This document shows positions 6,560-59,620 of a stretch of DNA of 64,000 bases, in pieces. The DNA is from Stappia sediminis (GTDB lineage Bacteria > Pseudomonadota > Alphaproteobacteria > Rhizobiales > Stappiaceae): the NCBI RefSeq assembly GCF_009826895.1, contig NZ_WUMV01000002.1, positions 558,001-622,000 on the forward strand, read 5' to 3'. The position numbers and the translations under genes are program-made. The notes below the pieces were generated by a model, which saw only the letters and a list, made by a program, of their open reading frames with translations, did not search any database and had not been told where the DNA came from. Each line of letters begins with the position of its first letter. The first letter of the stretch is position 1.

Positions 6560-6793
6560 GGGTGGACTTCCTCCAGATCTCAGCACTTCCCCGACTCAAT
6601 GTAACGCCGCGGGAATTACGTGCCTGATAACGAAATGTGTCGGGTTTAAGTCAAATTTTAGCATCGTTTCTTCCTGGCGCGCCGAAAATGCGAGCTGGTC
6701 GCATTGCAACTTTCATCGAACTCGCAATGGAACCTTTGAGGACCCCTCTTCGTTTCGTAAGTGAAGAGGGATTGGTCCAGCCAGAATGCGCAA

Positions 6794-7453
6794 ATGATCC
6801 TGGATATCGTTTCAGACCCGCTTTTCCTTATCTGCTGGGCGCTTGCAATGGTGCCGAGCCTTATCGTGCTGATTTACGATCTTCGCTCGAAAAACGCCCA
6901 TCTTATGCCGTTGATGAAACTCGTCTGGGCGCTGACGGTGCTTTACTCCGGGCCGCTCGGCCTGCTCATTTATTGGAAAACCGGCCGCAAGGAGATTGCG
7001 CGCGATTCGATCTGGAGGAGATCGTTCCGCTCCGTTGCACACTGCTATTCCGGCTGTGGGATGGGGGAGATCGTCGGTGTCGTCATCGCTGTCGGGCTGC
7101 TTTCCCTTGGCAATCTGTGGGTCGCCGGAATCACATTCGTGCTTGCCTATGTCGCGGGGTATTCGCTCACGGTGGGCCCGCTCATGCAGGAAGGTGTGCC
7201 ATTTCGCACCGCGTTACGCGATGCTTTCTTTGCGGAAACGCCCAGCATTGCAGTCATGGAGGTCGTGGCAATCGGTTCTGACCTGTATCTGGCCGGCTCC
7301 GCGACGATGGGCGAAATCATTTTCTGGTCGTCGCTGATCGTGTCTCTCACGCTCGGTCTGCTTGCCGCCTATCCGGTGAATGTGCTGCTCATCCATTTTG
7401 GTGTGAAGGAAGGGATGATGGACCCGCGCATGAGCGGACACGCTCACGCCTGA
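6794..7453 (+). CDS. DUF4396 integral membrane protein
   Basis: This protein of about 219 residues has six or so hydrophobic helices. Between helices 2 and 3 is the family hallmark SVAHCYSGCGMGEIVG, with His and two Cys that could bind metal. Members of this family occur next to metal or redox genes, but no biochemical role is established to my knowledge. The start is uncertain: ATG 6794 is used, while GTG 6761 adds eleven polar residues; neither has a good ribosome-binding site. The stop overlaps the end of the convergent cyclase gene by 10 bp. Confidence 0.8.
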   Translation: MILDIVSDPLFLICWALAMVPSLIVLIYDLRSKNAHLMPLMKLVWALTVLYSGPLGLLIYWKTGRKEIARDSIWRRSFRSVAHCYSGCGMGEIVGVVIAVGLLSLGNLWVAGITFVLAYVAGYSLTVGPLMQEGVPFRTALRDAFFAETPSIAVMEVVAIGSDLYLAGSATMGEIIFWSSLIVSLTLGLLAAYPVNVLLIHFGVKEGMMDPRMSGHAHA

Positions 7454-9198
7454 GCAACAGGTTGCCCGGCTTTCTTCAGCCCTTCGCGAAGATGTTCCGC
7501 GTCCGCTTCATTGGCGTAGTGAAGCGTATCGAGGAAGCCTTCTATGGTGAAGTCCGGGTCAAGGACCTTGATGCGGGCCATATGAGCACCGGCTGCCGTG
7601 GCGTCGCCGAGTTGGCCGTATGACGCGGCGATGAAGGCATGCTGCAACACGTCGGTGGACGACATGTGCATGAAGGCCTCTATCGCCTCGGGATATTGCC
7701 GGGCGGCGAAATGCGCCTTGCCGAGGTGGCTCCAGAAGCGCTCGGGATGGTGAGGGTTGAGCTTCATGGCGCGGCGTATCCAGTCGATACCTTCCTTGGG
7801 ATGGCCGAGCCAGGTCAGCAACTCCCCCTGCTGGACGACCACGAGGTCGTAATTCGGGTTGAGCGCCAGCGCCCGTTCCTGGTGGTAGCGCGCACGGGTG
7901 AGGTCGTTGCGGTTCACGTTGATGGCGGCAAGGATACGGTGCACATCGGCGTCATTGTCGTCGAGCGACAAGGCAATTTCGAGTTCCTTCTCGATTTTCG
8001 CGAACGTCGCGTCGGCATCCTCGCACCAGCCATACACCCAGGACTGGCCGAGGATGCAGCCGCGCCAGGCATGGGCATGGGCGTAGTCGGGGTCGAGTTC
8101 GAGCGCGCGCGTAATCAGTTCCTGCGCCATCTCGTTTTCTTCGCGTGCGCTGCGGTGATGGCGAACCTTTGCGGCGAGTACGCATTCGTAGGCCGCCATG
8201 CTGGATGGCGTCTTGCGGGAGAGCCTGTCCTGCTGGGCAGCCTCCACGCGTCCGGGCAGCGTTGCGACGATGGCCGAGGTCACCTCGTCCTGGATGGCGA
8301 AGATATCATCCAGCGTACGGTCGTACTTTTCCGCCCAGATATGCGCGTCGGTCGCTGAATCGATGAGCTGGACCGTTACCCGCAGCCGGTCGCCGCCCTT
8401 GCGAACGCTTCCCTCCACCAGGTACTGCGCGCCGAGCTTTTGCGCGACGTCGCGCAGGTTCACGGACTGCCCCTTGTAGACGAAGCTCGAATTGCGGGAG
8501 ATGACGAAAAGCTCGTGACGGCGCGACAGCTCGGTCAGGATGTCTTCCGTCAGCCCGTCGACGAAGAACTCCTGATCCGGATCCCCGCTCATGTTCGCGA
8601 AGGGCAGCACCGCGATGGTCGGCTTGTTCGTCTGGGGGCGTTCGTCGTCCTTGGCCGGTTTGTCGTCGCGGCGGTCTCCCGGCCTTGCGATCAACGCGCG
8701 CCACACGTGCACGGGCCGGGCGATATTCTTCACGGAGCGCTCGCCAAGATCCTCAAAGCCGATATCCAGACGATCGCGGACCTGATCATATACGGCCTGC
8801 GAAACGCAAAAGCCACCGACGTCGGCAAGCTGCTCGATGCGTGCGGCAACGTTCACCCCGTCGCCGAATATGTCGTCATTGTCGAAGATGATGTCGCCGA
8901 GATTGATGCCGATGCGGAATTGTATGCGCCGGTCGTCGGGCACGTCCGCGTTCCGCCGGTGCATGCGCTCCTGTATCTCGGCGGCACAACGCACCGCATC
9001 GGCGACGCTCTGGAATTCGACCAGCATCCCGTCGCCAGTCGTCTTGATGATGTTGCCCTGATTTTTTGCGATGGCAGGATCTATGAGTTCGATCCTGTGG
9101 GTCCTGAGCCGCGCGAGTGTGCCTTGCTCGTCGGCTTCCATCAGCCGTGAGTATCCAGCCATATCGGCCGCGAGCACCGCGGCGAGCCTTCGTTCCAT
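7444..9198 (-). CDS. Class III adenylate/guanylate cyclase with TolB-like and TPR domains
   Basis: This 584-residue protein has three parts. Residues 1-170 are a class III nucleotide cyclase domain (LAADMAGYSRLM, TTGDGMLVEF, then NLGDIIFDNDDIFGDGVNVAAR). Residues about 195-330 are a FlgO/TolB N-terminal-like domain (AVLPFANMSGDPDQEFFVDG). Residues about 340-580 are tetratricopeptide repeats (EMAQELITRALELDPDYAHAH and later copies). This architecture is common in rhizobia, often in many copies. It probably makes cAMP or cGMP in response to a protein partner bound by the TPRs. The ATG at 9198 has GAGGAAAC upstream. There is no membrane segment, so it is likely cytosolic. Confidence 0.9.
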   Translation of the reverse strand: MERRLAAVLAADMAGYSRLMEADEQGTLARLRTHRIELIDPAIAKNQGNIIKTTGDGMLVEFQSVADAVRCAAEIQERMHRRNADVPDDRRIQFRIGINLGDIIFDNDDIFGDGVNVAARIEQLADVGGFCVSQAVYDQVRDRLDIGFEDLGERSVKNIARPVHVWRALIARPGDRRDDKPAKDDERPQTNKPTIAVLPFANMSGDPDQEFFVDGLTEDILTELSRRHELFVISRNSSFVYKGQSVNLRDVAQKLGAQYLVEGSVRKGGDRLRVTVQLIDSATDAHIWAEKYDRTLDDIFAIQDEVTSAIVATLPGRVEAAQQDRLSRKTPSSMAAYECVLAAKVRHHRSAREENEMAQELITRALELDPDYAHAHAWRGCILGQSWVYGWCEDADATFAKIEKELEIALSLDDNDADVHRILAAINVNRNDLTRARYHQERALALNPNYDLVVVQQGELLTWLGHPKEGIDWIRRAMKLNPHHPERFWSHLGKAHFAARQYPEAIEAFMHMSSTDVLQHAFIAASYGQLGDATAAGAHMARIKVLDPDFTIEGFLDTLHYANEADAEHLREGLKKAGQPVAQA

Positions 9199-45644: not shown

Positions 45645-48600
45645 TCAGGCTGCTTCAGAAGTCTGGAGATTTTTCACCAACCTGTTCACGCCTGCGAAGT
45701 CGAGCTTTCCAGATCCGAGGATCGGCACTTTTTCAACAATCCGCACTTCGGCGGGCACCATCAGGTCCTGGGCACCATTCGCTTTGGCATGGTTCAGGAA
45801 ATCCGCTCTGGACGCGGACGCACAATCAGTGATGAGGATCAGCTTTTCGCCTTTGCGCTCATCCTTGACGGCAGCGACGGCCGAGAGGTGACCAGGCCAG
45901 ATGAGTCCGGCAATCTCCTCGACGGCCGACAGCGAAACCATTTCACCGCCGATCTTGGCAAAGCGTTTGGCGCGGCCCTTGATGGAAACGAAGCCGTCCT
46001 CATCGATGCCGACAATGTCGCCTGTATCGTGCCAGCCATCGGCCAAGGGAACGATGACGCCAGGATTGTTCGGCAAAATATAGCCGACCATGATGTTTGG
46101 ACCGGCAATGTAAAGACGGCCGCCATCATCCACGCCTGGTACATCCTCAAGGCGAGCCTCGATCCCTGGCATCAGTTTCCCTACCGTGCCGACCTTGTTG
46201 TACATGGGCGTGTTTATCGCAACCACGGGCGCTGCTTCCGTTACGCCGTAACCTTCAAGGATACGGATCCCGAAACGTTCCATGTATGTCTGGCGCGTCG
46301 TGGGTTTCACAGGTTCGGCGCCTGCGAAGCAATAGCGCAGGGAGCGGAAATCGTAGGCATGCGCCACACGAGCGTATCCGTTCAGGAAAGTATCCGTACC
46401 GAAAAGGATCGTGGCATTCGATGCATAGATCAGCTCAGGAACGATGCGGTAATGCAGCGGCGAGGGATAAAGGAAGATCGGCACGCCCGATACCAATGGC
46501 AGGATCGTTCCGGCGGTCAGTCCGAAGGAATGGAACATCGGCAGGACATTGAAGACCTTGTCGCTCGGTGTGAAATCGATGCGTGCCGCCGCCTGGGTGG
46601 CGTTCGCCAGTACGTTCGCGTGGCTGAGCACCACGCCCTTCGGCTGACCTTCGGAGCCGGAGGTGAACATGATGACGGCCACGTCGCCGATCGAGCGCTT
46701 CTCAAGGGGGCGCGTACGGTTCAACCTTCCCATGATCTTGTCGGACAGGCTGATTTCCGAGCGGATATCATCCAGCCATATGAATTCGACTTCCCGGCCG
46801 ACCTCATCGACGAGCGCATCGAGCTTGGCCTGGGTGACGAAGGCGCGTGATGACAGAACCTTGGTTACCTTTGCAGTGTGGCAGGCGGAAATGACGTTTC
46901 GCGTACCGGAGGTGAAATTGATCATCGCCGGGATCTTGCCCGCTGACATCAGCGCAAGTGTCGTCACAACGGCTCCATTGGCGTTCGGCAACATCACGCC
47001 CACGGTTTCCTCGTCACCCAATATCCGGGAAAGCTTGCGTGCCAAAACAGACGTCCCGGTCAGGAGGTTGCCGTAGGAGAGGCGGCCTGACACGGGATCC
47101 TCGACCGCTGTCTCGGACATGCCACGCTCCCGGGCGGTCTCGACGACCCGCTCCACGATCGTCTTGTCCGTCGGCAAGCTCGTTTCGAAGATCAGGTTGG
47201 ACATGATCTCATAAAGCTTCGTACCGGCGGCGGCGCGTCGCTTGCGGCCCCTCAAGTCGGCCGCGACCGTCAGTTCCTGCGGCTCCATGATGGTGACCTT
47301 GACCTTTGGGAAGAGTTTCTTCCGGATCTGGCTCGGGCTCAGGTATGAAAACGGCGTTTTTTCCAGACCGTCGATGCGGATCGGCAGGATTTTCGCGCCG
47401 GTCTTGTCGGCCACCATGGCCGCGCCGTCGTAAACCTTCATCAGACTTCCGGTAACCGTGATCCGCCCTTCGGGGAAAATCACCATTGGTTCTCCCGATC
47501 CGACCACCTTGATGAGGGATCGCGTTGCCATGGGTTTCGCCGGGTTGATCGGCAAGGCATTCGCCAGCTTCAGGAACGGGCGGATCCAGGGTCGTTGTGC
47601 AACGTGATAGTCGACGGCAAAAGTGGGTGCCTTGTCGGTCAGGGTAAGTGCGACTGCAGCATCGAGATAACTTACATGGTTCAAAGCCAGGATTGGCGCC
47701 TCACCGGCTTTTTCCAGGTTTTCAAGGCCTTTTACCTCCAGGCGGAAGAAGGCGCGGTAGATGATGGAGACCAGGTCGCGAAAGGGGTCCGTCGGCAGTT
47801 TCTTGAACATGACGATTGCCGCAAGCGCGCTGAACCCGGCCAGAATGAGCATGACATTGGATGTGCCCAGCCCGAGGTTCTGCGCGAAGGCGAGTGCAGC
47901 CCCACCGGCCGCCATTACAGCCGCACCGAGAGCATTGGCACCGGCAATGGTGCGCGCACGGTGTTGCGGGGCAGCCCAAGCCTGCAGGGCCGTAAAGGTC
48001 GGAACTGCCAGCAAGGCGCCCGAGATTGCGAGCCCCGTCATGTCTACCGCGACCCGCAACACACCGGGCTGGGATATGAAGTCGCTAAAGGTGACCGCGC
48101 TCGACACAGTCGCGAAGCCGTTTAGGGCGAAATGGACATCAAGGCAGAAGACAGCCATCAAGGCCGTGCCCAGCACTGCGGGAAGCAATACGACGCGTCC
48201 CGCGCAAAACCACGCGGCAATCGCCGAACCGATGCCAATGGACAGCGCGAAGACGGTCAGGAAGAACGTGACCATCGTCTCTCCACCGCCGAGGGTATCC
48301 CTCACGATTACGGGGAGAACGGACAGGACGACTGCGCCAACCAGCCAGAACCAGGAACTCATGACCGCGACGCGGAAGAGGCGCCGGTCACGGAAAAGAT
48401 CCGCGAGGATATTCCTGGTGGATTTCAGGACGTTCCAGTCGGGGCGAAGATCGGGCGCTGCAGCCTGGGTGGAAGGGATTTTCCGGCTGACGAGGTAACA
48501 TCCGACGGCAAGCGTCAACATGAGCGGCGCGAAGGCGAGCGTGGCATTGTTGCGGGCAAACAGGAGGCCTGCGGATATTGTACCGCCTAAAATGGCGAGG

Positions 48601-49043
48601 AATGTACCAGCCTCGACCCAGGCGTTTGCCCTTGGCAGTTCTTCCGGATCCAGATGATCCGGAAGGATACCGTATTTAACCGGACTGAACAGCGCGGAGA
48701 CGGACCCAAAAACAAATAGCGCGACAAACAGGACTGGAACGGATTGGAAGGCCATGCCCGCCACCGCGAGGGCCGCCCCTCCGATCTCGGCAAGTTTCAG
48801 ATTCCGAGCCACCGATGCCTTGTCGCAGCGGTCCGCGATCTGCCCGCCGAGTGCGGAAAGGAACAGGAATGGCGCGATGAAGACGGCGCCTGCAAGCGAA
48901 ACCAGAGCGGCAGAGCCGTTGGCGACCTGGAACAGGATCATGAATACGAGCGCATTCTTCAGAAAATTATCGTTGAACGCAGAAAGGAACTGGGTCCAGA
49001 ACAGCGGCGCAAAGCGCCGGGATTTCATTAATGAATTGGTCAT
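45645..49043 (-). CDS. aas: LplT-Aas fusion: lysophospholipid transporter, acyltransferase and acyl-ACP synthetase
   Basis: This 1132-residue protein joins three activities. Residues 1-400 are an MFS transporter like LplT (FWTQFLSAFNDNFLKNALVFM). Residues about 420-620 are a PlsC acyltransferase (NHVSYLDAAV, the H-x4-D motif near 452; FPEGRIT). Residues about 640-1120 are an AMP-binding acyl-ACP synthetase (FTSGSEGQPKG near 790; GYGVTEAAPV; YIAGPNIMVGY). In E. coli, LplT flips lysophosphatidylethanolamine inward and Aas reacylates it; here one polypeptide does both. ATG 49043 follows GAGGAAGCC. It is 54 bp after yiaA and likely in the pspA operon, fitting membrane repair. Confidence 0.93.
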   Translation of the reverse strand: MTNSLMKSRRFAPLFWTQFLSAFNDNFLKNALVFMILFQVANGSAALVSLAGAVFIAPFLFLSALGGQIADRCDKASVARNLKLAEIGGAALAVAGMAFQSVPVLFVALFVFGSVSALFSPVKYGILPDHLDPEELPRANAWVEAGTFLAILGGTISAGLLFARNNATLAFAPLMLTLAVGCYLVSRKIPSTQAAAPDLRPDWNVLKSTRNILADLFRDRRLFRVAVMSSWFWLVGAVVLSVLPVIVRDTLGGGETMVTFFLTVFALSIGIGSAIAAWFCAGRVVLLPAVLGTALMAVFCLDVHFALNGFATVSSAVTFSDFISQPGVLRVAVDMTGLAISGALLAVPTFTALQAWAAPQHRARTIAGANALGAAVMAAGGAALAFAQNLGLGTSNVMLILAGFSALAAIVMFKKLPTDPFRDLVSIIYRAFFRLEVKGLENLEKAGEAPILALNHVSYLDAAVALTLTDKAPTFAVDYHVAQRPWIRPFLKLANALPINPAKPMATRSLIKVVGSGEPMVIFPEGRITVTGSLMKVYDGAAMVADKTGAKILPIRIDGLEKTPFSYLSPSQIRKKLFPKVKVTIMEPQELTVAADLRGRKRRAAAGTKLYEIMSNLIFETSLPTDKTIVERVVETARERGMSETAVEDPVSGRLSYGNLLTGTSVLARKLSRILGDEETVGVMLPNANGAVVTTLALMSAGKIPAMINFTSGTRNVISACHTAKVTKVLSSRAFVTQAKLDALVDEVGREVEFIWLDDIRSEISLSDKIMGRLNRTRPLEKRSIGDVAVIMFTSGSEGQPKGVVLSHANVLANATQAAARIDFTPSDKVFNVLPMFHSFGLTAGTILPLVSGVPIFLYPSPLHYRIVPELIYASNATILFGTDTFLNGYARVAHAYDFRSLRYCFAGAEPVKPTTRQTYMERFGIRILEGYGVTEAAPVVAINTPMYNKVGTVGKLMPGIEARLEDVPGVDDGGRLYIAGPNIMVGYILPNNPGVIVPLADGWHDTGDIVGIDEDGFVSIKGRAKRFAKIGGEMVSLSAVEEIAGLIWPGHLSAVAAVKDERKGEKLILITDCASASRADFLNHAKANGAQDLMVPAEVRIVEKVPILGSGKLDFAGVNRLVKNLQTSEAA

Positions 49044-49097
49044 GGCTTCCTCCTTGCCAAAGCCCGGCGCAACTGCGGGCCGCTAGCTCGCATTCCC

Positions 49098-49379
49098 TTA
49101 GGCATCGTCAGTACTGCCGACGTCCCTCAAAAGCTTTTCGGTCTTGGCATCCTCGAGTCGGTTGTGGAATTTCTGGGCTTCGTCCCTGTCGCGGAGGGTC
49201 TTGGTGAGAGTGATGGCCGTGTGAACCAGCATGATCGACGCCATGGTGTAAAAGCCCTTCGCGGCGAAGCTGGCTTCCAGGTTGTAAATGCCGATTGCCA
49301 TCATGACCGCGGCGACGATGAAGCTCGTGGTCGTGAAGATGACCCAGTTCTGCGAATGTTTGATCGTGTTGTCCTGCAT
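49098..49379 (-). CDS. YiaA/YiaB-family two-helix membrane protein
   Basis: This 93-residue protein has two hydrophobic helices (FTTTSFIVAAVMMAIGIYNL and GFYTMASIMLVHTAITLTKTL) and a charged C-terminus (RDRDEAQKFHNRLEDAKTEK). The paired helices with NLEASFAAKGFY between them match the YiaAB family. Function is unknown. GAAGGAGAAAACC precedes ATG 49379. The gene sits 21 bp after pspA, suggesting cotranscription and a shared envelope role. Confidence 0.85.
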   Translation of the reverse strand: MQDNTIKHSQNWVIFTTTSFIVAAVMMAIGIYNLEASFAAKGFYTMASIMLVHTAITLTKTLRDRDEAQKFHNRLEDAKTEKLLRDVGSTDDA

Positions 49380-49400
49380 CGGTTTTCTCCTTCCTATGGT

Positions 49401-50093
49401 TCAGTTTTTCGAGACAAGAAGAGGGGTTGATTTCAGCCGCTGCAAAACGTCGTCCGTTGAAGGTCCAAGCGGTGCGCCGCAGCCTGCATCTGCCAGCCGG
49501 GCAACGAGTTCCTTCGGCCTGTCGAGGATGGAAAGCGAGGCAAGCGCCTGATCCGCGAGGGTTCCACGCTCCTGGCGTTCCTTGATGCGCGAGAGAGTGT
49601 CTTCCGCTTCGCCAAGGCTCGAATACTCGACTGATGGTCCTGGTCCGCCGGCTGCGCGGACCTGCTCCCTGACGCTTGCCACGCGATGACCGCGTTTGAG
49701 CTCGCGAAGCCGCGCTTCGGCGCAGCGAACGTTTTCCGTCAAGAGGCCGATGTCGGCGCTGAAGGCTTCGACGGCATCCGACAATGCGGCACGCTCGGCC
49801 TCCATGACCGCAAGCGCTTCCGCAGCTTCGCGGGCAAGCGCGTCTTCGCCCTTGGCCAATGCCGACCTTGCGCGAGTTTCAAGGTCCTCGATCGCATTGC
49901 TCAGTTTCGCGATGCGCCTGTGATCCTGCTCGTTTTGAGCCTTTGCCAGGGCAACGGCCTTTTGCGCGGCGCGAACATTCGATCCCGCGTCGCGGATCTG
50001 CTGGGTAAGCAGGGCGAGGTCATGGCGTCCCCCGGCTTCCTCAATGGCTCCGTTCACGAGAGCCCTTAGTGTCGAAATCAATCTCCGGAACAT
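49401..50093 (-). CDS. pspA: PspA/IM30-family membrane stress protein
   Basis: This 230-residue protein is almost entirely helical coiled coil, with an amphipathic start MFRRLISTLRALVNGAIEE typical of PspA, then QQIRDAGSNVRAAQKAVALAKAQ and long Ala/Glu/Arg heptads to about residue 150. PspA and Vipp1 belong to the ESCRT-III superfamily and coat damaged inner membranes. The C-terminal part is more variable and Pro/Gly-rich near 155-165. The gene is divergent from a TetR regulator, with two palindromes at 50108 and 50165 in between, not the usual PspF/PspBC control. No pspB, pspC or pspF is nearby. Confidence 0.88.
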   Translation of the reverse strand: MFRRLISTLRALVNGAIEEAGGRHDLALLTQQIRDAGSNVRAAQKAVALAKAQNEQDHRRIAKLSNAIEDLETRARSALAKGEDALAREAAEALAVMEAERAALSDAVEAFSADIGLLTENVRCAEARLRELKRGHRVASVREQVRAAGGPGPSVEYSSLGEAEDTLSRIKERQERGTLADQALASLSILDRPKELVARLADAGCGAPLGPSTDDVLQRLKSTPLLVSKN

Positions 50094-50107
50094 GCTTCCT
50101 CCAAAAA

Positions 50108-50120
50108 TGAACAATGTTCA
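50108..50120. promoter_or_regulatory. Palindromic operator 1, pspA/tetR intergenic region
   Basis: TGAACAATGTTCA is a perfect palindrome 15 bp from the pspA start. An identical copy lies 57 bp further on. It would block pspA transcription when bound. A TTGACA (50125-50130) lies right next to it. Confidence 0.75.
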
Positions 50121-50164
50121 CTATTTGACAAAGCCATAGATATGAGCCAAGGTCAAGTAGAAAA

Positions 50165-50177
50165 TGAACAATGTTCA
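50165..50177. promoter_or_regulatory. Palindromic operator 2, pspA/tetR intergenic region
   Basis: A second exact TGAACAATGTTCA, 22 bp before the preferred GTG start of the TetR gene. Two identical sites on either side of TTGACA fit autoregulation and repression of pspA by the same TetR dimer. Confidence 0.75.
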
Positions 50178-50198
50178 ATTTTGATCGGGGATTGGTTG

Positions 50199-50789
50199 GT
50201 GGCTGGCCTTCAAAAAGTGAAAAGCGAGGAGACGCGGAAGCGCGTCCTTGGCGCCGCGGTCGACCTGATGGAAGAAGGCGGTCTCGACGCCGTGCAAATT
50301 CGCAGCGTTGCCGAAAGAGCCGGATATTCCGTCGGCTCCGTCTACAAACACTACGCCGACATCGATGCACTTATCATTGCTGTGAATTCGATCACCCTGG
50401 AACGCATCCACCAGGTAATGAGGAATGCGACAGAAGGACTTGAAACACCGATTGACCGTCTGAAGGCATTGGCTCACGCCTACTCCGAATTTTCGCGCGA
50501 GAATCCAAAATTGTGGAAAGGCCTGTTCGATCATCATCTGCCAGAGAGCAGATCGATCCCGGAAGAGCACAAACTGGCGAATGTCGCCCTGTTGTCCTTG
50601 ATCGGCGGAGAGCTTAAGGCACTGGACCCAAGCATGGGCGAAGACGAACTGGCAGCTCGCACCAGAACCTGCTTCGGCGCCGTGCATGGACTCGTGACGA
50701 TCAGCCTGGAGGAGCGCTTCGCCGGACTATCTGGCGATACGCTTTCCTCGGAACTGGACTTTCTCGTTCAACGTTTGGCCGAAGCCTAG
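50199..50789 (+). CDS. TetR-family transcriptional regulator of the psp region
   Basis: This 196-residue protein has the TetR helix-turn-helix at residues 10-60 (ETRKRVLGAAVDLMEEGGLDAVQIRSVAERAGYSVGSVYKHYADIDAL, shown here only as landmark) and an all-helical ligand-binding C-terminal domain. The start is GTG 50199: GGGGA lies 7 bp upstream and both operators are then outside the gene. ATG 50142 is possible but would put operator 2 inside the gene. It is divergent from pspA-yiaA-aas, which it probably represses; the inducing signal is unknown but may be a lipid. Confidence 0.87.
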   Translation: MAGLQKVKSEETRKRVLGAAVDLMEEGGLDAVQIRSVAERAGYSVGSVYKHYADIDALIIAVNSITLERIHQVMRNATEGLETPIDRLKALAHAYSEFSRENPKLWKGLFDHHLPESRSIPEEHKLANVALLSLIGGELKALDPSMGEDELAARTRTCFGAVHGLVTISLEERFAGLSGDTLSSELDFLVQRLAEA

Positions 50790-50840
50790 GTCCATGACCT
50801 TGGGTATATTGCGCTCAAGAAGATTTCTGCGGGATATGCG

Positions 50841-51509
50841 TTAGCCGAACCAACGCTTTAACCAGCGCCGTAAGCCGCTGGCTGCCGAAGATGCACGCTT
50901 CCGCGCGTGAGTTCTGGCCTCACTGGTATTTTCGTCGAGGTCATCGATAAGGTTGTCAATACCTTCAACGATAGGGTCGAGCCTGTTTCGCTTGAAAGCA
51001 CGGGCCAAATGGAAAACCAGGATGGCAATGATTGCAAGCGTCGACAGGAAGGCGATATTGAACCAGGGGATCACGATAGCGTCGGGTCCGGACACTTCCC
51101 TGATGCTTATGATGTTCGGGAATATCGTGAAAAACTTGATGCGCCACCCGTAATGGGTAACTGCCACCCATGCGCTATCGTGCTGAGCAAGTGCCTGAGC
51201 CTGCGCCGTTACGCTGCTGCTGTCGAATTTAAGGTAGGGCGGCCAGCCCCAATCGGTATCCTCGTTGCGATAGACGCGTGGTTTGCCATCCGGCCATACG
51301 GCATTGATGAAACGCACATCCCTTGTGCCTTCAGTGTTGGTTCCGGCATCCGGTGCGGCCCAAAATAACGACGAAGCGCCGATATCCATGCGCTTCACGT
51401 CGGTGCCGACGATGCGAACCACATCGTGACCGGGCAACGTATAGTGCGCGAAAAAGATGAAGATCAACGCTAGCGGAGCGCCCAAAACCCATTTGTATTG
51501 CCCAGTCAA
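50841..51509 (-). CDS. DUF1523 membrane protein
   Basis: This 222-residue protein has a helix at residues 7-22, an extracytoplasmic domain (HDVVRIVGTDVKRMDIGASSLFW, RNEDTDWGWPPYLKFDSSS) and a second helix at about 148-168, then a basic cytosolic tail (RKRASSAASGLRRWLKRWF). The DVVRIVGTDVKR region is the mark of DUF1523. Start is TTG 51509, overlapping the previous stop (TTGA). It is the last gene of the five-gene operon and probably its membrane anchor or sensor. Function unknown. Confidence 0.82.
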   Translation of the reverse strand: MTGQYKWVLGAPLALIFIFFAHYTLPGHDVVRIVGTDVKRMDIGASSLFWAAPDAGTNTEGTRDVRFINAVWPDGKPRVYRNEDTDWGWPPYLKFDSSSVTAQAQALAQHDSAWVAVTHYGWRIKFFTIFPNIISIREVSGPDAIVIPWFNIAFLSTLAIIAILVFHLARAFKRNRLDPIVEGIDNLIDDLDENTSEARTHARKRASSAASGLRRWLKRWFG

Positions 51510-52861
51510 TCATCCGCCCCTTCGTCTACCGGTATGGCGCCCCAGGGACCCATGTTCTTGCCCAAACCGTAATCTTGACCATCTTCATCCATGCCCGGTT
51601 CGGGGCCGAACAGTTCTTCCCGCGTCCCGACCTTGTCGACCATGTATTCGTCGGCGAGGAATTTCGAAGCGTACGCCTTCTTTTCGTCGCTCCAGGTGCG
51701 GTACTGGTCGTAGAAAGCTTCCTTGTGGCAAATGAAAAGCTGCCGGAAATCGTGCGGTGTCATCTGGGACAGAAGCATGTTGACCAAATGTTTGTCGGCG
51801 TGATTGCGAGATCGCAAAAGATAGAAATAGGCAGCGTCGTCCGGCGTGAGTCTGGGCAAGTCGGTGCCGATAGCTATCCGGCGAACAATGTCTTCAAGCG
51901 CGTGGTATACTTCCGGTAAGGCCTTGTGATATTTGCGCTTCAATGCGCGCAGATCGCGGCGGGAAACAGAAGAGAGATCTTCTCCATTGCTCGCGGCGGC
52001 ATCGATGACGATGAAATCCAGCTTCTGTTTCAAGATGCCCTGCGCGTCTGTGTCCCTGGCGTCGAAGATCGGTTCCACAAGCTCGTTTACATTCAGGAAA
52101 GACGCTACTGCCTGGCGATCATCCAGCGACAGAACGCTTTGCACCGGCAGATCATCCTTGCTATTCAGCCTTTCGATCGTGATGCAGGCCGTTTCCTTGG
52201 CATCGCGGAAAACGTAGATTCCGCCAAAAAGCGATGTGTAGAAATTGCGCTGTTCAAAGCTTTGCGAGCGAAGATTGAGCGGAGTACGAATGATGTCTCC
52301 GGTGTGTTTCGACAATTCGACCATTTCGGCGATGAGAACATCATCCCACCAGCCGTCAGGCTCGGTCATGAACCGCTCGATTTTCGCTGAAAGTTCATCT
52401 CCGGCTTCCACATGTCCGCCAACAGTGTCCGCATCGACTTCAATGGTGCTGAAATTGAAGAGATCACGCGGATTTTTCACGGAATAGACGGAGTTGACCA
52501 ATTCACCGACCACGGGGTCGCGGACGGAAAGTGCGAAGAGTTGCTCTTCATTCTCGTCGATGAAGCGCCTGAGGATCGCTCGCGACGTTGAAAAACGGGC
52601 GTTGAGGAGGGGGGCTGTCTTCTGTTCGACGGAAAGCAGGATGAACTGGCGATTGCAGCCGTTCGGGTTAAGATATAGAGGGTCATCCAATTCGTCGCCG
52701 ATTTCCGGAGAAAACCCGGAAATATCGATGTGAAACTCCTCAAGGGCGGTGCGCTTTCCCGTAACATGCTCCAGCGCCCGGTTGTACCGGCTGACCATGG
52801 ACGTGGAAGTGACCTCATAGAGGTTTCCGAACATCAGGCCATGTTTGACGAGACGCATCAT
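51506..52861 (-). CDS. Conserved unknown protein, AAA+ operon gene 4
   Basis: This 451-residue protein is cytosolic with no signal peptide or membrane helix. A beta-rich first half (YEVTSTSMVSRYNRALEHV; LNPNGCNRQFILLSVEQK) and a helical second half (SRRDLRALKRKYHKALPEVYHALEDIVRR) lead to an acidic, Gly-rich tail (GMDEDGQDYGLGKNMGPW). I do not recognise a catalytic motif. The ATG at 52861 overlaps the ATPase stop (ATGATG over TGA), so it is translated with the ATPase, and likely acts with it. DUF1523 overlaps its own stop. Confidence 0.72.
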   Translation of the reverse strand: MMRLVKHGLMFGNLYEVTSTSMVSRYNRALEHVTGKRTALEEFHIDISGFSPEIGDELDDPLYLNPNGCNRQFILLSVEQKTAPLLNARFSTSRAILRRFIDENEEQLFALSVRDPVVGELVNSVYSVKNPRDLFNFSTIEVDADTVGGHVEAGDELSAKIERFMTEPDGWWDDVLIAEMVELSKHTGDIIRTPLNLRSQSFEQRNFYTSLFGGIYVFRDAKETACITIERLNSKDDLPVQSVLSLDDRQAVASFLNVNELVEPIFDARDTDAQGILKQKLDFIVIDAAASNGEDLSSVSRRDLRALKRKYHKALPEVYHALEDIVRRIAIGTDLPRLTPDDAAYFYLLRSRNHADKHLVNMLLSQMTPHDFRQLFICHKEAFYDQYRTWSDEKKAYASKFLADEYMVDKVGTREELFGPEPGMDEDGQDYGLGKNMGPWGAIPVDEGADD

Positions 52862-54804
52862 GCGCGCGAAGCTTCCATGAAACGCCTTTTTGCCTCCTCC
52901 ATGCGCTGCATCTCGCGAACGGCATTCTCGATCGCGGCTTCGTCGGACTTGTCGGCATAGCGGAATTCGCTGTCCGCGTAGCGGTTGATCTCCTGAATGA
53001 CCATATCGACCGTGATCGGTCGGGCCAGTTCGGCGATCATGTTTTTCTTCGTATCGTAATCCTTGAAAAGAAAGACATCCGGATTCTCCATCCATTCATC
53101 GGGTAACTCGAAATCCATGGACCTGACCTTGATGGCATCGGTGATATTCTTGATGGCGCGGCCCGTGAACCTTTCATCCGCTTCCTGAATGGCCTTGAGG
53201 TACGTGCCGAGTTTAGCAATCGAATCGAGTTCGCCAATTTGCAAGCGCACACGATCGAAGACTTGCGACAGGGCGAGTTCCTGGGGCTGCGAATGGCGCT
53301 CGAACGAGGCTTCAACCGCTTTCGTTATGGCTTGTGCCTCGAATAGCCGATGATCGCCGACAGGAATGGAGTGGTTCTTTCCGATCAGCAGATGCAGAAG
53401 ATCGATGTAATCTTCGCGGGTCTGGGGGCCGTCGACCAGAAAGCGCGCCCCGGCGCGCTGCCTGAGCGCATCGTCCACATTCTCGGGGTAATTCGAGAAC
53501 ATCCCGAAGGTGCAATTTCCGCGCACAACGGTATTGGCGCCCGCGAAACTCTCCATCAAAACGGCGGTAATTTCCAGTTGGCCGGCTGATGATTGCCGGT
53601 CGCCGCGCTTGCCCGCAAGCTGGTCGATATCGTCGATCGTTCCGAAGCCGATGGCATTTGGATCGGTGATATTCTTTATGAATGACTTGGCGTTTTGAGC
53701 CGACTTGCCCTGGTAGCTGTCGATGCTTTCGGTTGACAGGTTCTGGTAGCGAAAGGCGTAGCCGGCGTTGGCGCAATATTCGTTGATCATGCCCGCCATC
53801 ATCTGAATGAGCGTGGTCTTGCCCGTTCCCGGTTTGCCGTCACCCATGAAAGTGAATATGAACCCGCCCAACTCCGCGAACGGGTTGATCTTCCGGTCAA
53901 AATCATAGGCCATAAGCATCTTTGACAGCTTCATTGCCTGATACTTGGCGATATGGTTTCCCACCACCTCTTCAGGCTTCTTGAATGCCATCGTCAGGAC
54001 TGAGGAGCGAGCGCGCGCTGCCGGCGTAAAACCGGTGATCTCGAAATTGTCGGCTTCGACGCGATATCTTGCCTCCGAAAACGACCTTGCTTGCAGGGAG
54101 CCTTCAGCGCGGAGCGTCACCTTCTCCATCAGCTTTTCGCAAAATGAGGTGATAACGCCGACCAGTTGCGCGTCCGAATTCGCGGCGGCCGCTATTTCCT
54201 GGTCCATTTCCCAAAGGGCGCCGTGCAGGGCAAGCTGATCGTTGTCGAGAAGGACCTCTTCCACTTCTCCGCTCTGGATTTCGGTCTCGCCAGCCTCAGG
54301 AGTGATGCCCGACAGCAGAAAGTCCGTCATGTTCGCAAATACATGGAGCGAAATGAGCGCGGATGCGGTTAGCAGTTCCTGAAACAGGTTCTTGCGCGAA
54401 GCGTCCAGCGTTCCAGCGAGATTGCTGCGCTTCAGGTCGCTGAGCCCGGATTGTTCCGCGAACTGGTCCGACGCCACTTGCGCAACCGAAAGTGCCCGTC
54501 GCAGCGAGCGCAGCACACTCGCCTGCAATGGGGTGATCATTGCATCATCATCTGTGTCGAAAATGCGGGCGCTCAACTGCACGCCTTGCGGCCGCGCGGT
54601 CGACCGTGTCACGAGACCGGGTGTTGTGGAGCGAAACCGGCGTCTCGTTCCCAATCCGCTGGAGCGCTCCCGAACATCCTTTGTCTGCCTTTTTGCGGCA
54701 ATGCGAGGCGTATGGTCGAACCCCTCCAGCATCGCCTCCGCCAAAGGGTATTTTTCCCGGATCTTTTCTTCTTTCAATTCCATGAGGTCGTTAGAAACAG
54801 TCAC
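52858..54804 (-). CDS. AAA+ ATPase, centre of a five-gene operon
   Basis: This 648-residue protein has a single AAA+ module. Walker A is GDGKPGTGKTT at 321-331, Walker B region is IGFGTIDDID at 385-394, sensor 1 is in FGMFSNYPENVDD (Asn438), and the probable arginine finger is in LRQRAGARF (449-454). The 300-residue N-terminal part has helical domains (SALISLHVFANMTDFLLSG) and could recognise substrate. The C-terminal helices are charged. Start GTG 54804 is used; ATG 54783 is possible. Such single-module AAA+ proteins often form hexamers that pull apart protein assemblies. The substrate here is unknown, with PspA or the coiled-coil partner as candidates. Confidence 0.85.
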   Translation of the reverse strand: MTVSNDLMELKEEKIREKYPLAEAMLEGFDHTPRIAAKRQTKDVRERSSGLGTRRRFRSTTPGLVTRSTARPQGVQLSARIFDTDDDAMITPLQASVLRSLRRALSVAQVASDQFAEQSGLSDLKRSNLAGTLDASRKNLFQELLTASALISLHVFANMTDFLLSGITPEAGETEIQSGEVEEVLLDNDQLALHGALWEMDQEIAAAANSDAQLVGVITSFCEKLMEKVTLRAEGSLQARSFSEARYRVEADNFEITGFTPAARARSSVLTMAFKKPEEVVGNHIAKYQAMKLSKMLMAYDFDRKINPFAELGGFIFTFMGDGKPGTGKTTLIQMMAGMINEYCANAGYAFRYQNLSTESIDSYQGKSAQNAKSFIKNITDPNAIGFGTIDDIDQLAGKRGDRQSSAGQLEITAVLMESFAGANTVVRGNCTFGMFSNYPENVDDALRQRAGARFLVDGPQTREDYIDLLHLLIGKNHSIPVGDHRLFEAQAITKAVEASFERHSQPQELALSQVFDRVRLQIGELDSIAKLGTYLKAIQEADERFTGRAIKNITDAIKVRSMDFELPDEWMENPDVFLFKDYDTKKNMIAELARPITVDMVIQEINRYADSEFRYADKSDEAAIENAVREMQRMEEAKRRFMEASRA

Positions 54805-54813
54805 GGGCGGAAC

Positions 54814-55947
54814 CTACTTGTAGCTGAGAATTTTGCCCTTCGGGCCAACGACGAATTTACGGACATTCGCAAAGCCTGGTGGATTGCGTTCCTTCAGTAT
54901 CTGAAAAGGGTGCAGGGGGAGAATGAGCGATCGCTGCTGATTGGTGTGGCCGTTGATGTCTTGCAAGGGGTCGCCGGGTCCGGCGAACGGATCAAGCCGA
55001 TAGACCTGGCGTTCAACCAGGGAAAAGAAGCCAGAGGCTTTCAATTCGGTACTTGAGGCCACGATTGTCTCGGTTGTCCATGCGAGTGCCCAATCCTCGC
55101 CGGGGTGGCCGCTGGCTTCGCTCAGAACATCGCGCAAGGGACCGGACTGCTGGGTATAGGCGCGGCTGTACATCGGGCCGATATAGAAACGTCGCAATCT
55201 TTTCGGGTGCAGATCATCGAAATCCTGATCGAAGCCCCGGGCGATCGTGACAAGCTTCAATGACGAAGATGATTGCGCCACGAGATGGCTTTGAATGCGG
55301 GGCCACCTTTTTTCGTCCTTCGCCAACGGTTTTCTGCCGCTGTCCTCCAGATCCATGATGTATATGAGCGGAATATTCTGCTGGCTGTCATAAACGGCCC
55401 AGTGCAGTCGGTATTGGCGGCGTGTCGGGTTGACGTTCCCGGTCCAGATCAAGCGTGGGTCATTTCGCGCCCAGAATATCCATCCGTTTGCCAGTCGCTC
55501 GTAATAGTGGCGCTGCGATGCGGCGAATTGCAGGTTCAACGGGGAGGAGTGTTCTCGCAGGATGTGATTCACCATCCCCACTTTCAGCTCTTTCAAGCCA
55601 GGGAGCGAGCGCAGGTGGTTTTCCGCCTGCATCGCATCGTTCGCCATCTGCAGCAGTTCCTGGTAAACGGGAAAGCCGCTGTCCTGGCGATCTATGCTCA
55701 GTAGGCTCGGCAGCAAATTCGATACGCGCCCGGCCAGAAGGTACTTGTAGGAGAGCGCCGTGAAGGTGCCCGACAGCGCTTCGAGATATCCTTGAAGAAT
55801 CGGAATTTCGGACTGAAGCGCGATGTCTTCGGATACAACGCCCTTCGCGACGCTTTTCAGGTGGGCAATAATCCGTTCGAACTTTGCGAAATAGCGCCGC
55901 GTTTCATGCGCCTCCTCCAAAGTTCTGTGATCCAGTGTTAGATCCAA
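54814..55947 (-). CDS. Conserved unknown protein, AAA+ operon gene 2
   Basis: This 377-residue soluble protein has no signal peptide. The N-terminal half is helical (RYFAKFERIIAHLKSVAKGVV; LPSLLSIDRQDSGFPVYQELLQMAND), and the C-terminal half is beta-rich with Trp and Tyr (GWIFWARNDPRLIWTGNVNPTR; LHWAVYDSQQNIPLIYIMDLED). I do not recognise a family. Start is TTG 55947 with GAGGG upstream, 10 bp after the coiled-coil gene, and it ends 9 bp before the ATPase gene, so all are cotranscribed. Confidence 0.7.
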   Translation of the reverse strand: MDLTLDHRTLEEAHETRRYFAKFERIIAHLKSVAKGVVSEDIALQSEIPILQGYLEALSGTFTALSYKYLLAGRVSNLLPSLLSIDRQDSGFPVYQELLQMANDAMQAENHLRSLPGLKELKVGMVNHILREHSSPLNLQFAASQRHYYERLANGWIFWARNDPRLIWTGNVNPTRRQYRLHWAVYDSQQNIPLIYIMDLEDSGRKPLAKDEKRWPRIQSHLVAQSSSSLKLVTIARGFDQDFDDLHPKRLRRFYIGPMYSRAYTQQSGPLRDVLSEASGHPGEDWALAWTTETIVASSTELKASGFFSLVERQVYRLDPFAGPGDPLQDINGHTNQQRSLILPLHPFQILKERNPPGFANVRKFVVGPKGKILSYK

Positions 55948-55957
55948 CGTTCAGCCC

Positions 55958-57034
55958 TCAGGCGCCGTAGGCATTCTTGTCGTGCTTTTCGACAATTTTC
56001 TCAAACCGGCGGGCAAAGCGTTCGTCCGATTTTGCCTTTTCCTCCAGAACCTTGCGGGCAAACAAGATGTGCTCGTCGTGCTGCTCCAGCATATCGGCCA
56101 TGCGGTGGTTGGTGGCAGAGCCGATGGCCGCCATGGCGGACTGCGCTTCCTTGTCCGTGGCCACTCCGATTTCGTTGATCTTGTGCGCGATATCCTGTTG
56201 CTGCGCGGTTTTCAGCGATTTGACGAGCGCATCGTACAGGACGACTCGCTGCCTCGTGTCCGTCTGGAGCTTGTTAATCAACACCATCTGGGTGGCCGCC
56301 TGATTCTGAAGGCTATCGACCCAGGTCTTGCCTTTCTCGATATAGCGTTCGAGCGTTTGGCTTTCGGCAAGCTTTACCTGTTCTTCTTGCACCAGCCTGT
56401 TGTAGTCGGCGTTCACTCGCGCAAGCTCACCTTCCAGTCTTGTGCGGGCCGATGCATCGGTCTCAACGGCGATCTTGTTCTCCAGAGAGATAATCTCCGG
56501 GTCCATTGCAAGGAGTTGCTTCTTGATCTCTTCCAGGGCACCGACAGTCTGTTCGCGCTTTGTGAGCGTTTCGCCAAGATTGGATTCAACGCGTTTGCTG
56601 TGTTCTTTAAGCGTGTTCAACTGGTCCTGAAGCAACTGCCCGATGACGTTGGACTTTGAGATCAGATCCTGCAGCTTGTCATCGATACTTGCGCTTCGCA
56701 TGCGCTCTTGCCGGATACTGTCGGCTCTCGCCTTCGAGAAGATTCCGATAAAGGTCTCCCAGCCGGTCTTGGAGCGCATGGCATCGAAGTCTTTTGTGAA
56801 ATTAGCCGTGACGTCATCAAGACCCATGATGAGTTCTGCGATATTGGCGCCCATCATTTCCGTATGGGCATGGACGTCATCAAGGGTCGCGTTCTCAATG
56901 TCGACTGAAATGTCTTGACCGGTGTCGAGCTTTTCCCGGGCAGTTTCTATTTTCGACGTGAGTTCGTCGATCTTTGCCCTTGCGGCGGCTACATCCTGTT
57001 TCGATTTTTCAATTTGAGCGCCAAAGTCTGCCAT
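55958..57034 (-). CDS. Coiled-coil protein, AAA+ operon gene 1 (TelA-like in character)
   Basis: This 358-residue protein is almost all helix: KSKQDVAAARAKIDELTSKIE at the start, then WETFIGIFSKARADSI, IDDKLQDLISKSNVIGQLL and a long heptad stretch to the end. There is no membrane helix. Its plan (helical rods, a Trp/Phe segment near 105-115, then a Gln-rich helix TQMVLINKLQTDTRQRV) is reminiscent of the TelA/YaaN family of stress proteins, but I cannot confirm that. ATG 57034 has AGGAAGAGG upstream. It opens the operon and may polymerise, serving as the target of the ATPase. Confidence 0.75.
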   Translation of the reverse strand: MADFGAQIEKSKQDVAAARAKIDELTSKIETAREKLDTGQDISVDIENATLDDVHAHTEMMGANIAELIMGLDDVTANFTKDFDAMRSKTGWETFIGIFSKARADSIRQERMRSASIDDKLQDLISKSNVIGQLLQDQLNTLKEHSKRVESNLGETLTKREQTVGALEEIKKQLLAMDPEIISLENKIAVETDASARTRLEGELARVNADYNRLVQEEQVKLAESQTLERYIEKGKTWVDSLQNQAATQMVLINKLQTDTRQRVVLYDALVKSLKTAQQQDIAHKINEIGVATDKEAQSAMAAIGSATNHRMADMLEQHDEHILFARKVLEEKAKSDERFARRFEKIVEKHDKNAYGA

Positions 57035-57415
57035 GAGCCTCTTCCTGAAAATTTCAGAACGAAATGCTGATCGACTACCATTAATTTGTAGACCGACGAT
57101 TAACAACCGCTCCAAAGCCTAAGCGTTGCGCTTATTATCGAGCAAAGTCTGCATATGCCGGAAATCACTTTCCCAAAAGTTATTGGAAGTGTGAAATTTT
57201 CCGTAATTTCCGATTTTGCAGGGCGCGCCATTGCGTGAAATCTGCACAAATTTCCTTCAATGCTGCACGGAAGTGGCGGTGAAAATGCAATTTTGCCGAT
57301 TAGAAGCATTCAATGCGCGGCGGATGGGCAATCATCAATCCAGGAAAATCCATCAAGGATTTCGGCCTGTTGGCAGCACGAACATAAATTCATTCGATCA
57401 TAGGTGGCCCGAAAG
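57035..57415. other. Divergent promoter region, AAA+ operon and DUF4173 gene
   Basis: This 381-bp region is AT-rich and should contain the promoters of the five-gene operon (left) and DUF4173 (right). I see an imperfect inverted repeat around 57155-57195 (CACTTTCCCA and TGGAAGTG) but no copy of the TGAACAATGTTCA operator and no gene. Confidence 0.45.
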
Positions 57416-58906
57416 ATGCGAGCATCATTATATTCACGAGCCGGCTTCGCGAAATTCAAATTCCCAAGAAAGATAATAATCAGAATTTCCGTTGCTCTTG
57501 CCTTGATAATTCTAGCCGATTTCCTTTTTTATCAACGGCTCATAGGCATATCATTCGTATTGTTCATGTTGGTACTGGCTGCTGGCGTTCTGTTGGCTAA
57601 TCGTTTGCGGGCAACCTGGCGCGAACGAATTCTGGCGGCATCGGTACTCGTCCTTTCACTATGTCCGGCAGCGGAGGCGATAACTCCGCTTTCCGTCATT
57701 ATCGGTGCCGGCGGCGTCGCCTTGTTCGTGCTCAAAATGACCGGCAACGGTCGGGTTGCTCCTCCGGTTCTGGCGAGCCGGATGACCATTTTGTTGACGG
57801 CGGGTCTTTCCAGAATAGGGCGCCACCGCAAAAGGTGGCGCAGGCCTCATCATTTAAACACATTAAAAAATCTGGGTGCCGCCTCTGCATCCTGGCTCGC
57901 TCCAATGGGTCTCGGATTGGTGTTCGTCGTAATATTCTCCGAGGCCAATCCGATATTTTGGTCCTGGGTAAGCGTGCTTGATCCGCGGAGCCTGCTCGCC
58001 TCTCTGGAACCACGGCGGCTCCTGTTCTGGGTGTTGTTGGGCATATTCCTGTCGCCATTCGTTCGCGTGCCGGCCTTCGTCCGAGCGCGGATAGAAAGCG
58101 AGGACATTCACATCCTGCCGGAAAGCTGGTTCGTGGAGACAGCTTTTATTGTTCGCTCGCTCGTTGTTTTAAACGCGGTCTTCGCTCTGCAGACGGTTTT
58201 GGATATGATTTATTTATGGGGTGGTGCTCAATTGCCTGAAGGCGTGAGCCCTGCGGCCGATGCCCAGAAAGCGGCCTATCTTCTGGTAGTCTCAGCATTG
58301 CTTGCGGCCGGCTTCGTCCTGCTTGCCACGCGCAATGCAGCCGAAGGGGCGATGTCGCGTCTGGTACGCAAACTTATCTACCTCTGGATTGCGCAGAACG
58401 TAGTGTTGATCTTCTCGGCTATTCTTCGCCTGGATCTCTACGTTGAAACGTTCTCCCTGACGCGCCTTAGACTGGCGGCATTCATATGGATGGGCCTTGT
58501 GGTCGCTGGCCTTGTTCTCATCGTGTTGCGCCTGGTCCTGTCGAGGTCGAACCGCTGGCTGGTCAATGCGAACCTGATAGCGCTTGCCATTGCCCTATAC
58601 GGTTGCAGCATTGTGGATCTGAACCGGATAATCGCGGACTACAATGTCGTGCATAGCCGTGAGGTCTCGGGGCGTGGGGGCGCCCTCGATCGGAACTACC
58701 TGTGCGGGCTTGGCGCTTCGGCACTTCCCGCCATCGACACGTTTCTTGCCGGGCGTAAGAAGGAACGGCGTGGCGGATGGGTAATGCTCGATCTCGCGAA
58801 TTGTGCGGAAACGTTACGTCGGGAGCTTCACCGCGGGTCCGGTGACTGGAGGTCTTGGACATTTCGCAAACACCGATTGCGCGATGATTTGGCGATGCTG
58901 ATGTAA
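57416..58906 (+). CDS. DUF4173 polytopic membrane protein
   Basis: This 496-residue protein has about ten membrane helices (IIIRISVALALIILADFLF and others) and ends in a soluble region (GGALDRNYLCGLGASALPAID). Its layout fits the DUF4173 family, which has no known function. The ATG at 57416 has AGGTGG 8 bp upstream; GTG 57404 is the longer option. It is divergent from the AAA+ operon. The basic segment RIGRHRKRWRRPHH near residues 135-148 is a likely cytosolic loop. Confidence 0.82.
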   Translation: MRASLYSRAGFAKFKFPRKIIIRISVALALIILADFLFYQRLIGISFVLFMLVLAAGVLLANRLRATWRERILAASVLVLSLCPAAEAITPLSVIIGAGGVALFVLKMTGNGRVAPPVLASRMTILLTAGLSRIGRHRKRWRRPHHLNTLKNLGAASASWLAPMGLGLVFVVIFSEANPIFWSWVSVLDPRSLLASLEPRRLLFWVLLGIFLSPFVRVPAFVRARIESEDIHILPESWFVETAFIVRSLVVLNAVFALQTVLDMIYLWGGAQLPEGVSPAADAQKAAYLLVVSALLAAGFVLLATRNAAEGAMSRLVRKLIYLWIAQNVVLIFSAILRLDLYVETFSLTRLRLAAFIWMGLVVAGLVLIVLRLVLSRSNRWLVNANLIALAIALYGCSIVDLNRIIADYNVVHSREVSGRGGALDRNYLCGLGASALPAIDTFLAGRKKERRGGWVMLDLANCAETLRRELHRGSGDWRSWTFRKHRLRDDLAMLM

Positions 58907-59020
58907 GGGCGCAAGTACGGGAAGGGGAATGTTGCTGCTCGACGTTGCAGCAGTTGCTTGAGAGAAAATCGCGGCGGATACCGCGGCAGATGCATTCGGT
59001 TCTTTTATCGTGCGGGAACT

Positions 59021-59620
59021 TCAAGCCGAGGGTTTCGGCATCCCGGCGCCAGGCACCAGCTTTCCTCGATAACGCACAACCAAACCGCCGCCCAGCGGGG
59101 CGAACAACGCAACATCGAAGTGGAATATTCCCTCTCGCGCATATTCGCGGCTTTCGCTCAAGGGCAACAGGAAGCGTGGAAGCGGAATACCCAGGAACCA
59201 GCCGCGACGTACCGGAAGATGCATGGCCTCGTTTTTCACAAGCAATTCCTGCTCGTATATGAAAGGCCCGAAACGCTCTCGATAACGGCAGGGCAGGGTG
59301 GCCGGTGTGCAGTATGAGCGGAAAATCCGGTTGTCAAAATCTCTTTCCCAGATCTCGCCCGTGGCGATGCGTGTTTTTGTAACCGTGACGGGTACGTTTT
59401 CTCCAGCCGATGGAAACCCGAAAAACCAGGTTGCCAGCCGAGCGATGAATGACGAGCCACGCGTGATCCGTGCCGTGCCTGAAAAACGTTCAGTGTCTTG
59501 AACGCTGTGCAGCGCCTGGAGTTGCGGAGGCAGCAGTTCCCATCGCTCGGCGAGCGCGGATTGAAACAGCGTGGGCTGGTTCGATCCGTTCGTATTCTTT
59601 GTGCCACAAACGTCGGACAT
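59021..59620 (-). CDS. DUF4166 domain protein
   Basis: This 199-residue soluble protein matches the DUF4166 pattern: ALAERWELLPPQLQALHSV at the N-terminus, then the beta-rich stretch TRGSSFIARLATWFFGFPSAGENVPVTV and TGEIWERDFDNRIFRS. The family often resembles a lipid-binding fold and can be fused to dehydrogenases; function is unknown. Start ATG 59620. It is convergent with the DUF4173 gene and closes the envelope-stress stretch. Confidence 0.8.
   Translation of the reverse strand: MSDVCGTKNTNGSNQPTLFQSALAERWELLPPQLQALHSVQDTERFSGTARITRGSSFIARLATWFFGFPSAGENVPVTVTKTRIATGEIWERDFDNRIFRSYCTPATLPCRYRERFGPFIYEQELLVKNEAMHLPVRRGWFLGIPLPRFLLPLSESREYAREGIFHFDVALFAPLGGGLVVRYRGKLVPGAGMPKPSA

Follow-up and report, generated by a model that had tools for sequence, protein, structure and literature searches.

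A PspA-YiaAB unit with a divergent TetR gene and a lysophospholipid-repair enzyme in Stappia sediminis, independent of its neighbouring AAA+ operon

We analysed a 64,000-nucleotide stretch of Stappia sediminis DNA (contig NZ_WUMV01000002.1, positions 558,001 to 622,000; hereafter the window, numbered from its first letter), in which a preliminary description had proposed an envelope-stress island at positions 45645–59620, joining PspA, lipid repair and an AAA+ operon. The region is two independent modules: a unit built around pspA (module A, 45645–50789) and a five-gene AAA+ operon (module B, 50841–57034), which is an unrelated neighbour of the PspA unit. In module A, the pspA gene (49401–50093, minus strand; ATG start codon with GGAGG ahead) encodes a PspA/IM30 protein of the ESCRT-III superfamily, matches PF04012 at 89–90 bits (cut-off 33.9) and is the sole PF04012 copy in the window’s genome (G000). 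It is followed after 21 bp by yiaAB (49098–49379, minus strand), whose 93 amino acid (aa) product has a YiaAB two-helix domain, and after a further 54 bp by an intact lplT-aas fusion (45645–49043, minus strand). The 1132-aa fusion protein combines a major facilitator superfamily (MFS) flippase, an HX4D acyltransferase and an acyl-acyl carrier protein (acyl-ACP) synthetase; it matches the NCBIfam equivalog PRK06814 at 1627 bits (cut-off 1349), with MFS_1, Acyltransferase and AMP-binding domains all present. Divergent from pspA lies tetR (50142–50789, plus strand), encoding TetR_N and TetR_C_33/WHG domains and having a possible alternative start, GTG at 50217. Open reading frame and family scans bore out the identities first given to pspA, yiaAB, LplT-Aas, TetR and the five genes of the AAA+ operon. 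They also agree with the described lack of pspF, pspB and pspC at the locus, where the Pfam matches of the neighbours are to TetR, YiaAB, LplT-Aas and module B only; no genome-wide search was made for these genes.

Two putative operators lie at the tetR-pspA promoter, and pspA, yiaAB and lplT-aas are co-oriented behind them, as had been described. Operator 1 (50108..50120) is a 13-bp perfect palindrome, TGAACAATGTTCA, lying some 14 bp ahead of the pspA start codon; operator 2 (50165..50177) repeats this 13-mer 57 bp away, towards tetR. The 22-bp contexts of the two palindromes are 91% identical, and the alternative TetR start, which is the likelier one, would put both in intergenic DNA. Allowing up to two mismatches, 1.4 matches to the TGAACAATGTTCA pattern are expected in the window, and both exact sites are those of the tetR-pspA promoter. 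The exact motif with N at its centre finds these two sites alone in the 4.79-Mb genome. A twin-site pattern, defined as two TGAACnnnGTTCA-type sites 16–46 bp apart, likewise has a single occurrence in the genome, marking this promoter alone. A one-mismatch site 5′ of a nitroreductase-like gene (C10:666919, L179) was considered and not accepted as a target.

pspA loci across the class were annotated by profile to sort their context types, which gave 22 alphaproteobacterial loci of the tetR-pspA-yiaAB type, spread over at least 10 GTDB families and including several plasmids. The tetR gene is divergent from pspA-yiaAB in the window and in L019–L024, L137, L138, L142 and L154, and co-directional with it in Rhodobacteraceae (L091, L140, L146, L147 and L152); in L157, the TetR gene is located elsewhere, beside lplT-aas. 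An lplT-aas gene directly follows pspA-yiaAB in the window, L019, L020, L137 and L142, and follows with a TetR-like frame between in L167. Five genome relatives (G003, G019, G406, G234 and G041) have lplT-aas downstream of tetR-pspA-yiaAB, and the full tetR-pspA-yiaAB-lplT/aas set is carried by four plasmids (L244–L247) of Rhizobium tropici CIAT 899, R. rhododendri, Ensifer sp. PDNC004 and Shinella sp. WSC3-e. Within the window’s own family, full-length LplT-Aas was found in 3 of 25 sampled genomes, and all three copies adjoin a TetR-type pspA. G234 carries a pspA-linked LplT-Aas and a second, unlinked copy. A single clade of pspA-linked LplT-Aas proteins was not strictly recovered in the tree: five of the six linked copies fall in a supported eight-row clade that holds unlinked copies too, and that of L167 lies elsewhere. 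In an alignment of TetR-type PspA proteins the C-terminal tail has a conserved motif, LADAGFG..s.ADDVLxRLK, which may bind a partner in this PspA subtype. Downstream of the unit, the Ensifer and Shinella plasmids share a block in inverse orientation encoding a hypothetical protein, a GNAT protein, a second hypothetical protein and ThiF (L246:8417-13387, L247:8598-13366).

The operator follows this gene arrangement closely. Of the 22 TetR-type pspA promoters, 21 have between one and three copies of TGAACnnnGTTCA, whereas 58 other pspA loci have none (Fisher p ~8e-18, a value inflated by related loci). The twin-site pattern matched 17 of 22 chosen genomes and 12 of 258 class genomes, the latter being the less biased sample; the reversed pattern, used as a control, matched 0 in each. 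Operator sites also mark lplT-aas genes that have no pspA beside them: twin sites with a TetR homologue nearby occur in G030, G345 and G061, the homologue being adjacent in G030 and G061, and single sites occur at related lplT-aas/TetR loci in G422, G310 and G240. Sites ahead of tetR itself are found in G104, G216 and G219. The TetR proteins encoded beside sites belong to one subfamily, with a recognition-helix glycine and tyrosine, N57/T60, W100 and H157-G158 in common. pspA-yiaAB (L157) and tetR/lplT-aas (L190) lie apart in G278, yet at both promoters the half-site is changed to TGCAC, as would be expected if one repressor serves both; the shared change suggests co-evolution of the repressor and both of its operators.

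Several other operator-marked genes are predicted to act on lipids. Twin operators in G241 precede an operon of CDP-OH_P_transf, Acyltransferase (PlsC-type) and CTP_transf_1 (CdsA-type) genes (L228:727-3108), and in G252 the tetR-pspA-yiaAB set continues into acyltransferase and cytidylyltransferase genes (L140:4352-6015) like the last two of the G241 operon. Sites also precede a fatty-acid hydroxylase gene in G241 and the gene for a similar protein in G042, where tetR is divergent. Possible further targets in G252 are a 346-aa periplasmic-type protein and a small membrane protein encoded 5′ of a mur-type cluster, both preceded by twin operators and both without a Pfam match (L229, L230). In G104, three operators lie between a TetR gene of the subfamily and a gene for a large secreted protein (L235:1519-3066).

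We consider positions 45645–50789 to be probably a self-contained, autoregulated membrane-repair unit: a TetR-run variant of the Psp response, combining a coat for damaged inner membrane with re-acylation of lysophospholipids. In the cycle we propose, TetR would bind the two operators (elsewhere up to three) in the shared promoter and repress its own gene together with pspA-yiaAB-lplT/aas. Damage to inner-membrane phospholipids would generate a ligand, most plausibly a lipid breakdown product such as a lysophospholipid or fatty acid, that releases TetR. PspA would then polymerise on the stressed inner leaflet, and YiaAB, a small membrane protein, would probably anchor PspA or signal to it. LplT would flip lysophospholipids inward for re-acylation by Aas with acyl-ACP, and their removal would take away the inducer, so that repression returns. 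The activities given here to PspA, LplT and Aas are those expected from family knowledge, PspA being established as a membrane-coating protein of the ESCRT-III superfamily and LplT-Aas as a flippase plus acyltransferase that re-acylates lysophospholipids (PMC8281802, PMC11416262). The Pseudomonas LplT-Aas polypeptide turns lyso-PE back into PE and emerged from screening for factors that defend against phospholipase toxins (PMC8926400).

Some observations weigh against this proposal. Both the repression and its ligand are steps that we infer, and TetR_C_33/WHG is a broad family whose ligand could here be a foreign compound. L167 (G041) has the full gene set without the TGAACnnnGTTCA operator, and a few twin sites stand ahead of genes not evidently concerned with lipids (L229, L230, L236 and L238). 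Many TetR-type loci have no lplT-aas beside pspA (L021–L024, L138, L146, L147 and L152), which makes lipid repair optional to the system. A wider proposal is offered tentatively: alphaproteobacteria may widely share a Psp variant whose single TetR directly senses a product of phospholipid damage (lysophospholipid or fatty acid) and switches on both an ESCRT-III-type PspA-YiaAB coat and lipid-rebuilding enzymes, either LplT-Aas or PlsC, CdsA and CDP-alcohol transferase, as one feedback regulon.

Two other signals deserve consideration. Many TetR proteins sense foreign hydrophobic compounds, and solvents, phenolics or antimicrobials might be what this TetR detects, with pspA-yiaAB-lplT/aas as a protective output and lipid damage not the signal. 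Efflux repressors are among the NCBIfam-named relatives of TetR, and since many copies of the regulon lack lplT-aas the signal need not be a lysophospholipid. However, no efflux pump was seen among the operator-marked loci examined, where most targets that can be identified are membrane genes or act on lipids, and we regard a foreign inducer as unlikely. TetR could instead be a lipid-homeostasis regulator of the FabR/FasR kind, reading the supply of acyl-ACP or acyl-CoA, in which case PspA would be made when phospholipid synthesis or turnover changes and not upon damage. The operators before CDP-alcohol transferase, acyltransferase and cytidylyltransferase genes in G241, and before fatty-acid hydroxylase genes (G241, and G042 by similarity), would suit such a role, as would the presence of FabR and FasR among the weak NCBIfam matches of TetR. 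Yet no operator was found ahead of core fatty-acid genes, and the commonest targets, pspA-yiaAB and lplT-aas, are a better fit to damage repair; we regard regulation by acyl supply as unlikely too.

Module B begins with an all-helical coiled-coil protein of 358 aa without a Pfam family (55958..57034, minus strand), followed on the same strand by a 377-aa protein with no assigned family (54814..55947), a classical AAA ATPase (52858..54804), a DUF6638 protein (51506..52861; PF20343, E 1.8e-183) and a DUF1523 membrane protein (50841..51509; PF07509, E 7e-62) whose gene is convergent with tetR. There is a 4-nt overlap between the AAA and DUF6638 genes. Loci of Stappiaceae and Rhodobacteraceae, and others as far afield as Sinorhizobium and Vibrio megareplicons, conserve the order of coiled coil, 377-aa protein, AAA and DUF6638, with DUF1523 as the fifth gene in 76 of 95 AAA+ loci. 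The ATPase (PF00004, 49.8 bits) resembles p97- and Rpt-type enzymes in sequence. It has a Walker A motif GDGKPGTGKT, a Walker B motif TIDDID and a second region of homology (SRH) with paired arginines; D444, R450 and R454, the last two being the SRH arginines, are invariant. In Walker B (D391-D392), Asp replaces the usual catalytic Glu, and this is invariant in 24 of 24 aligned homologues. Its AlphaFold2 (AF2) model has low confidence (61.8); the AAA core alone aligns, equally to p97, PAN and archaeal Vps4 (Z ~6.5–7), and the N-terminal ~250 aa are largely helical in this low-confidence model, with no Pfam MIT match. The protein had no matches in a phage collection or among viral contigs, and PADLOC gave weak matches to generic AAA proteins, nothing more. 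The coiled-coil protein has an AF2 model of moderate quality (pLDDT 71), whose PDB matches (syntaxin bundles, ClyA-type bundles and SMC coils) are at the level of generic helical bundles; no PspA or Vipp1 structure is in the match lists. Kinship with ESCRT-III/PspA (hhalign profile probability 1.5%) and with TelA was rejected, the homologues having no Pfam TelA match. PF05816 itself matched in none of 26 genomes, G000 included. Module B is most likely an independent membrane-associated AAA remodelling system.

The preliminary description had the AAA+ operon, together with DUF4173 and DUF4166 genes, in one island with pspA, and named rare co-occurrence of the two blocks in other genomes among the signs that would count against it. 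We traced the operon through 95 loci on genome contigs, in relatives and on plasmids, and adjacency proved rare: pspA lies within 10 kb of it in one locus (L091), the operon being complete without a nearby pspA in the other 94. Most TetR-type pspA loci are correspondingly without the AAA+ operon. DUF4153 and DUF4166 are within range of it in 0 of 95 loci; the DUF4166 label agrees with a PF13761 match, and the gene at 57404–58906 is DUF4153 (PF13687), not DUF4173. In L091 (Tateyamaria, 5373–8307), the only other locus where tetR-pspA-yiaAB abuts the AAA+ operon, the arrangement differs: tetR and the coiled-coil gene diverge, and an operator at 7062 lies between them.

Nor is promoter sharing indicated. 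The AAA+ operon is not behind the palindromes: it faces tetR tail to tail with 51 bp between, which precludes a promoter in common with pspA. It has a promoter of its own near 57034–57404, no operator with up to two mismatches occurs before it in 56950–57450, and among 92 homologues one has an operator ahead of the AAA+ operon, within the region common to a neighbouring tetR. Among 41 genomes (the window’s and 40 relatives), four have the AAA+ protein and nine PspA, with both in G000 and G003, on different contigs in the latter; there is no association among these close relatives (p 0.5), and a fifth AAA+ match, in G002, is weak (28%). A class sample of 387 genomes has AAA+ in 8 and PspA in 73. 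Leaving out the window’s genome, five of seven AAA+ genomes have PspA (p 0.003, ignoring relatedness, one family supplying four of the seven), and in none are the two genes adjacent.

Tests of neighbourhood, operator and close-relative co-occurrence thus all go against a single island. A role for the AAA+ protein in taking PspA polymers apart, as Vps4 does with ESCRT-III, is very improbable: the genes are adjacent here and, in another arrangement, in Tateyamaria, the ATPase is a classical AAA, PspA has been reported alongside other AAA+ proteins (Ravi et al. 2024, PMC11237479) and the class-wide co-occurrence is in its favour, but conserved gene linkage and, in the window, an operator are both lacking and the coiled coil is not PspA-like by profile. 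Of the TetR-controlled alternative Psp response with lipid repair first suggested, the conserved tetR-pspA-yiaAB(-lplT/aas) arrangement and its operator hold up, and the AAA+ link does not.

The PspA unit resembles the classical enterobacterial Psp response (pspFABC) in having PspA as inner-membrane effector, a gene for a small membrane partner and a dedicated divergent regulator. It differs in having TetR and palindromic operators instead of the sigma54 activator PspF, YiaAB in place of PspB/PspC and a lysophospholipid repair enzyme within the operon. Two comprehensive Psp surveys (Ravi et al. 2024, PMC11237479; Popp et al. 2022, PMC9239133) describe many PspA contexts, AAA+ partners included, with lineage-specific partners and regulators as here, although neither main text mentions TetR or YiaA, and that of Ravi et al. 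does not mention lysophospholipid. The repair enzyme is of the same family, single-polypeptide LplT-Aas included, as the LplT-Aas remodelling system (PMC11416262) and Pseudomonas aas PA3267 and arc3 (PMC8926400), which guard against phospholipase attack. Arc3, however, is under Gac/Rsm and is described with no mention of PspA, whereas the window’s enzyme is encoded in an operon with PspA-YiaAB and, we propose, under TetR. ESCRT-III with Vps4 offers a looser parallel: PspA belongs to the ESCRT-III superfamily and the neighbouring ATPase is a classical AAA, but module B is independent, and a Vps4-like link to PspA is not supported. Our literature search found no paper joining PspA with YiaAB, LplT with PspA or TetR-family control with pspA, and the main texts of the two surveys give no prior description of a TetR-YiaAB-LplT/Aas form of the Psp response.

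The unit bears on two open questions, namely which signals drive PspA beyond the PspF paradigm and what ties membrane coating to lipid repair. A single repressor with a short, genome-unique operator is apparently placed over both, which opens these questions to direct test in tractable rhizobia (Rhizobium tropici CIAT 899, for example), and the uncharacterised YiaAB family gains a functional context.

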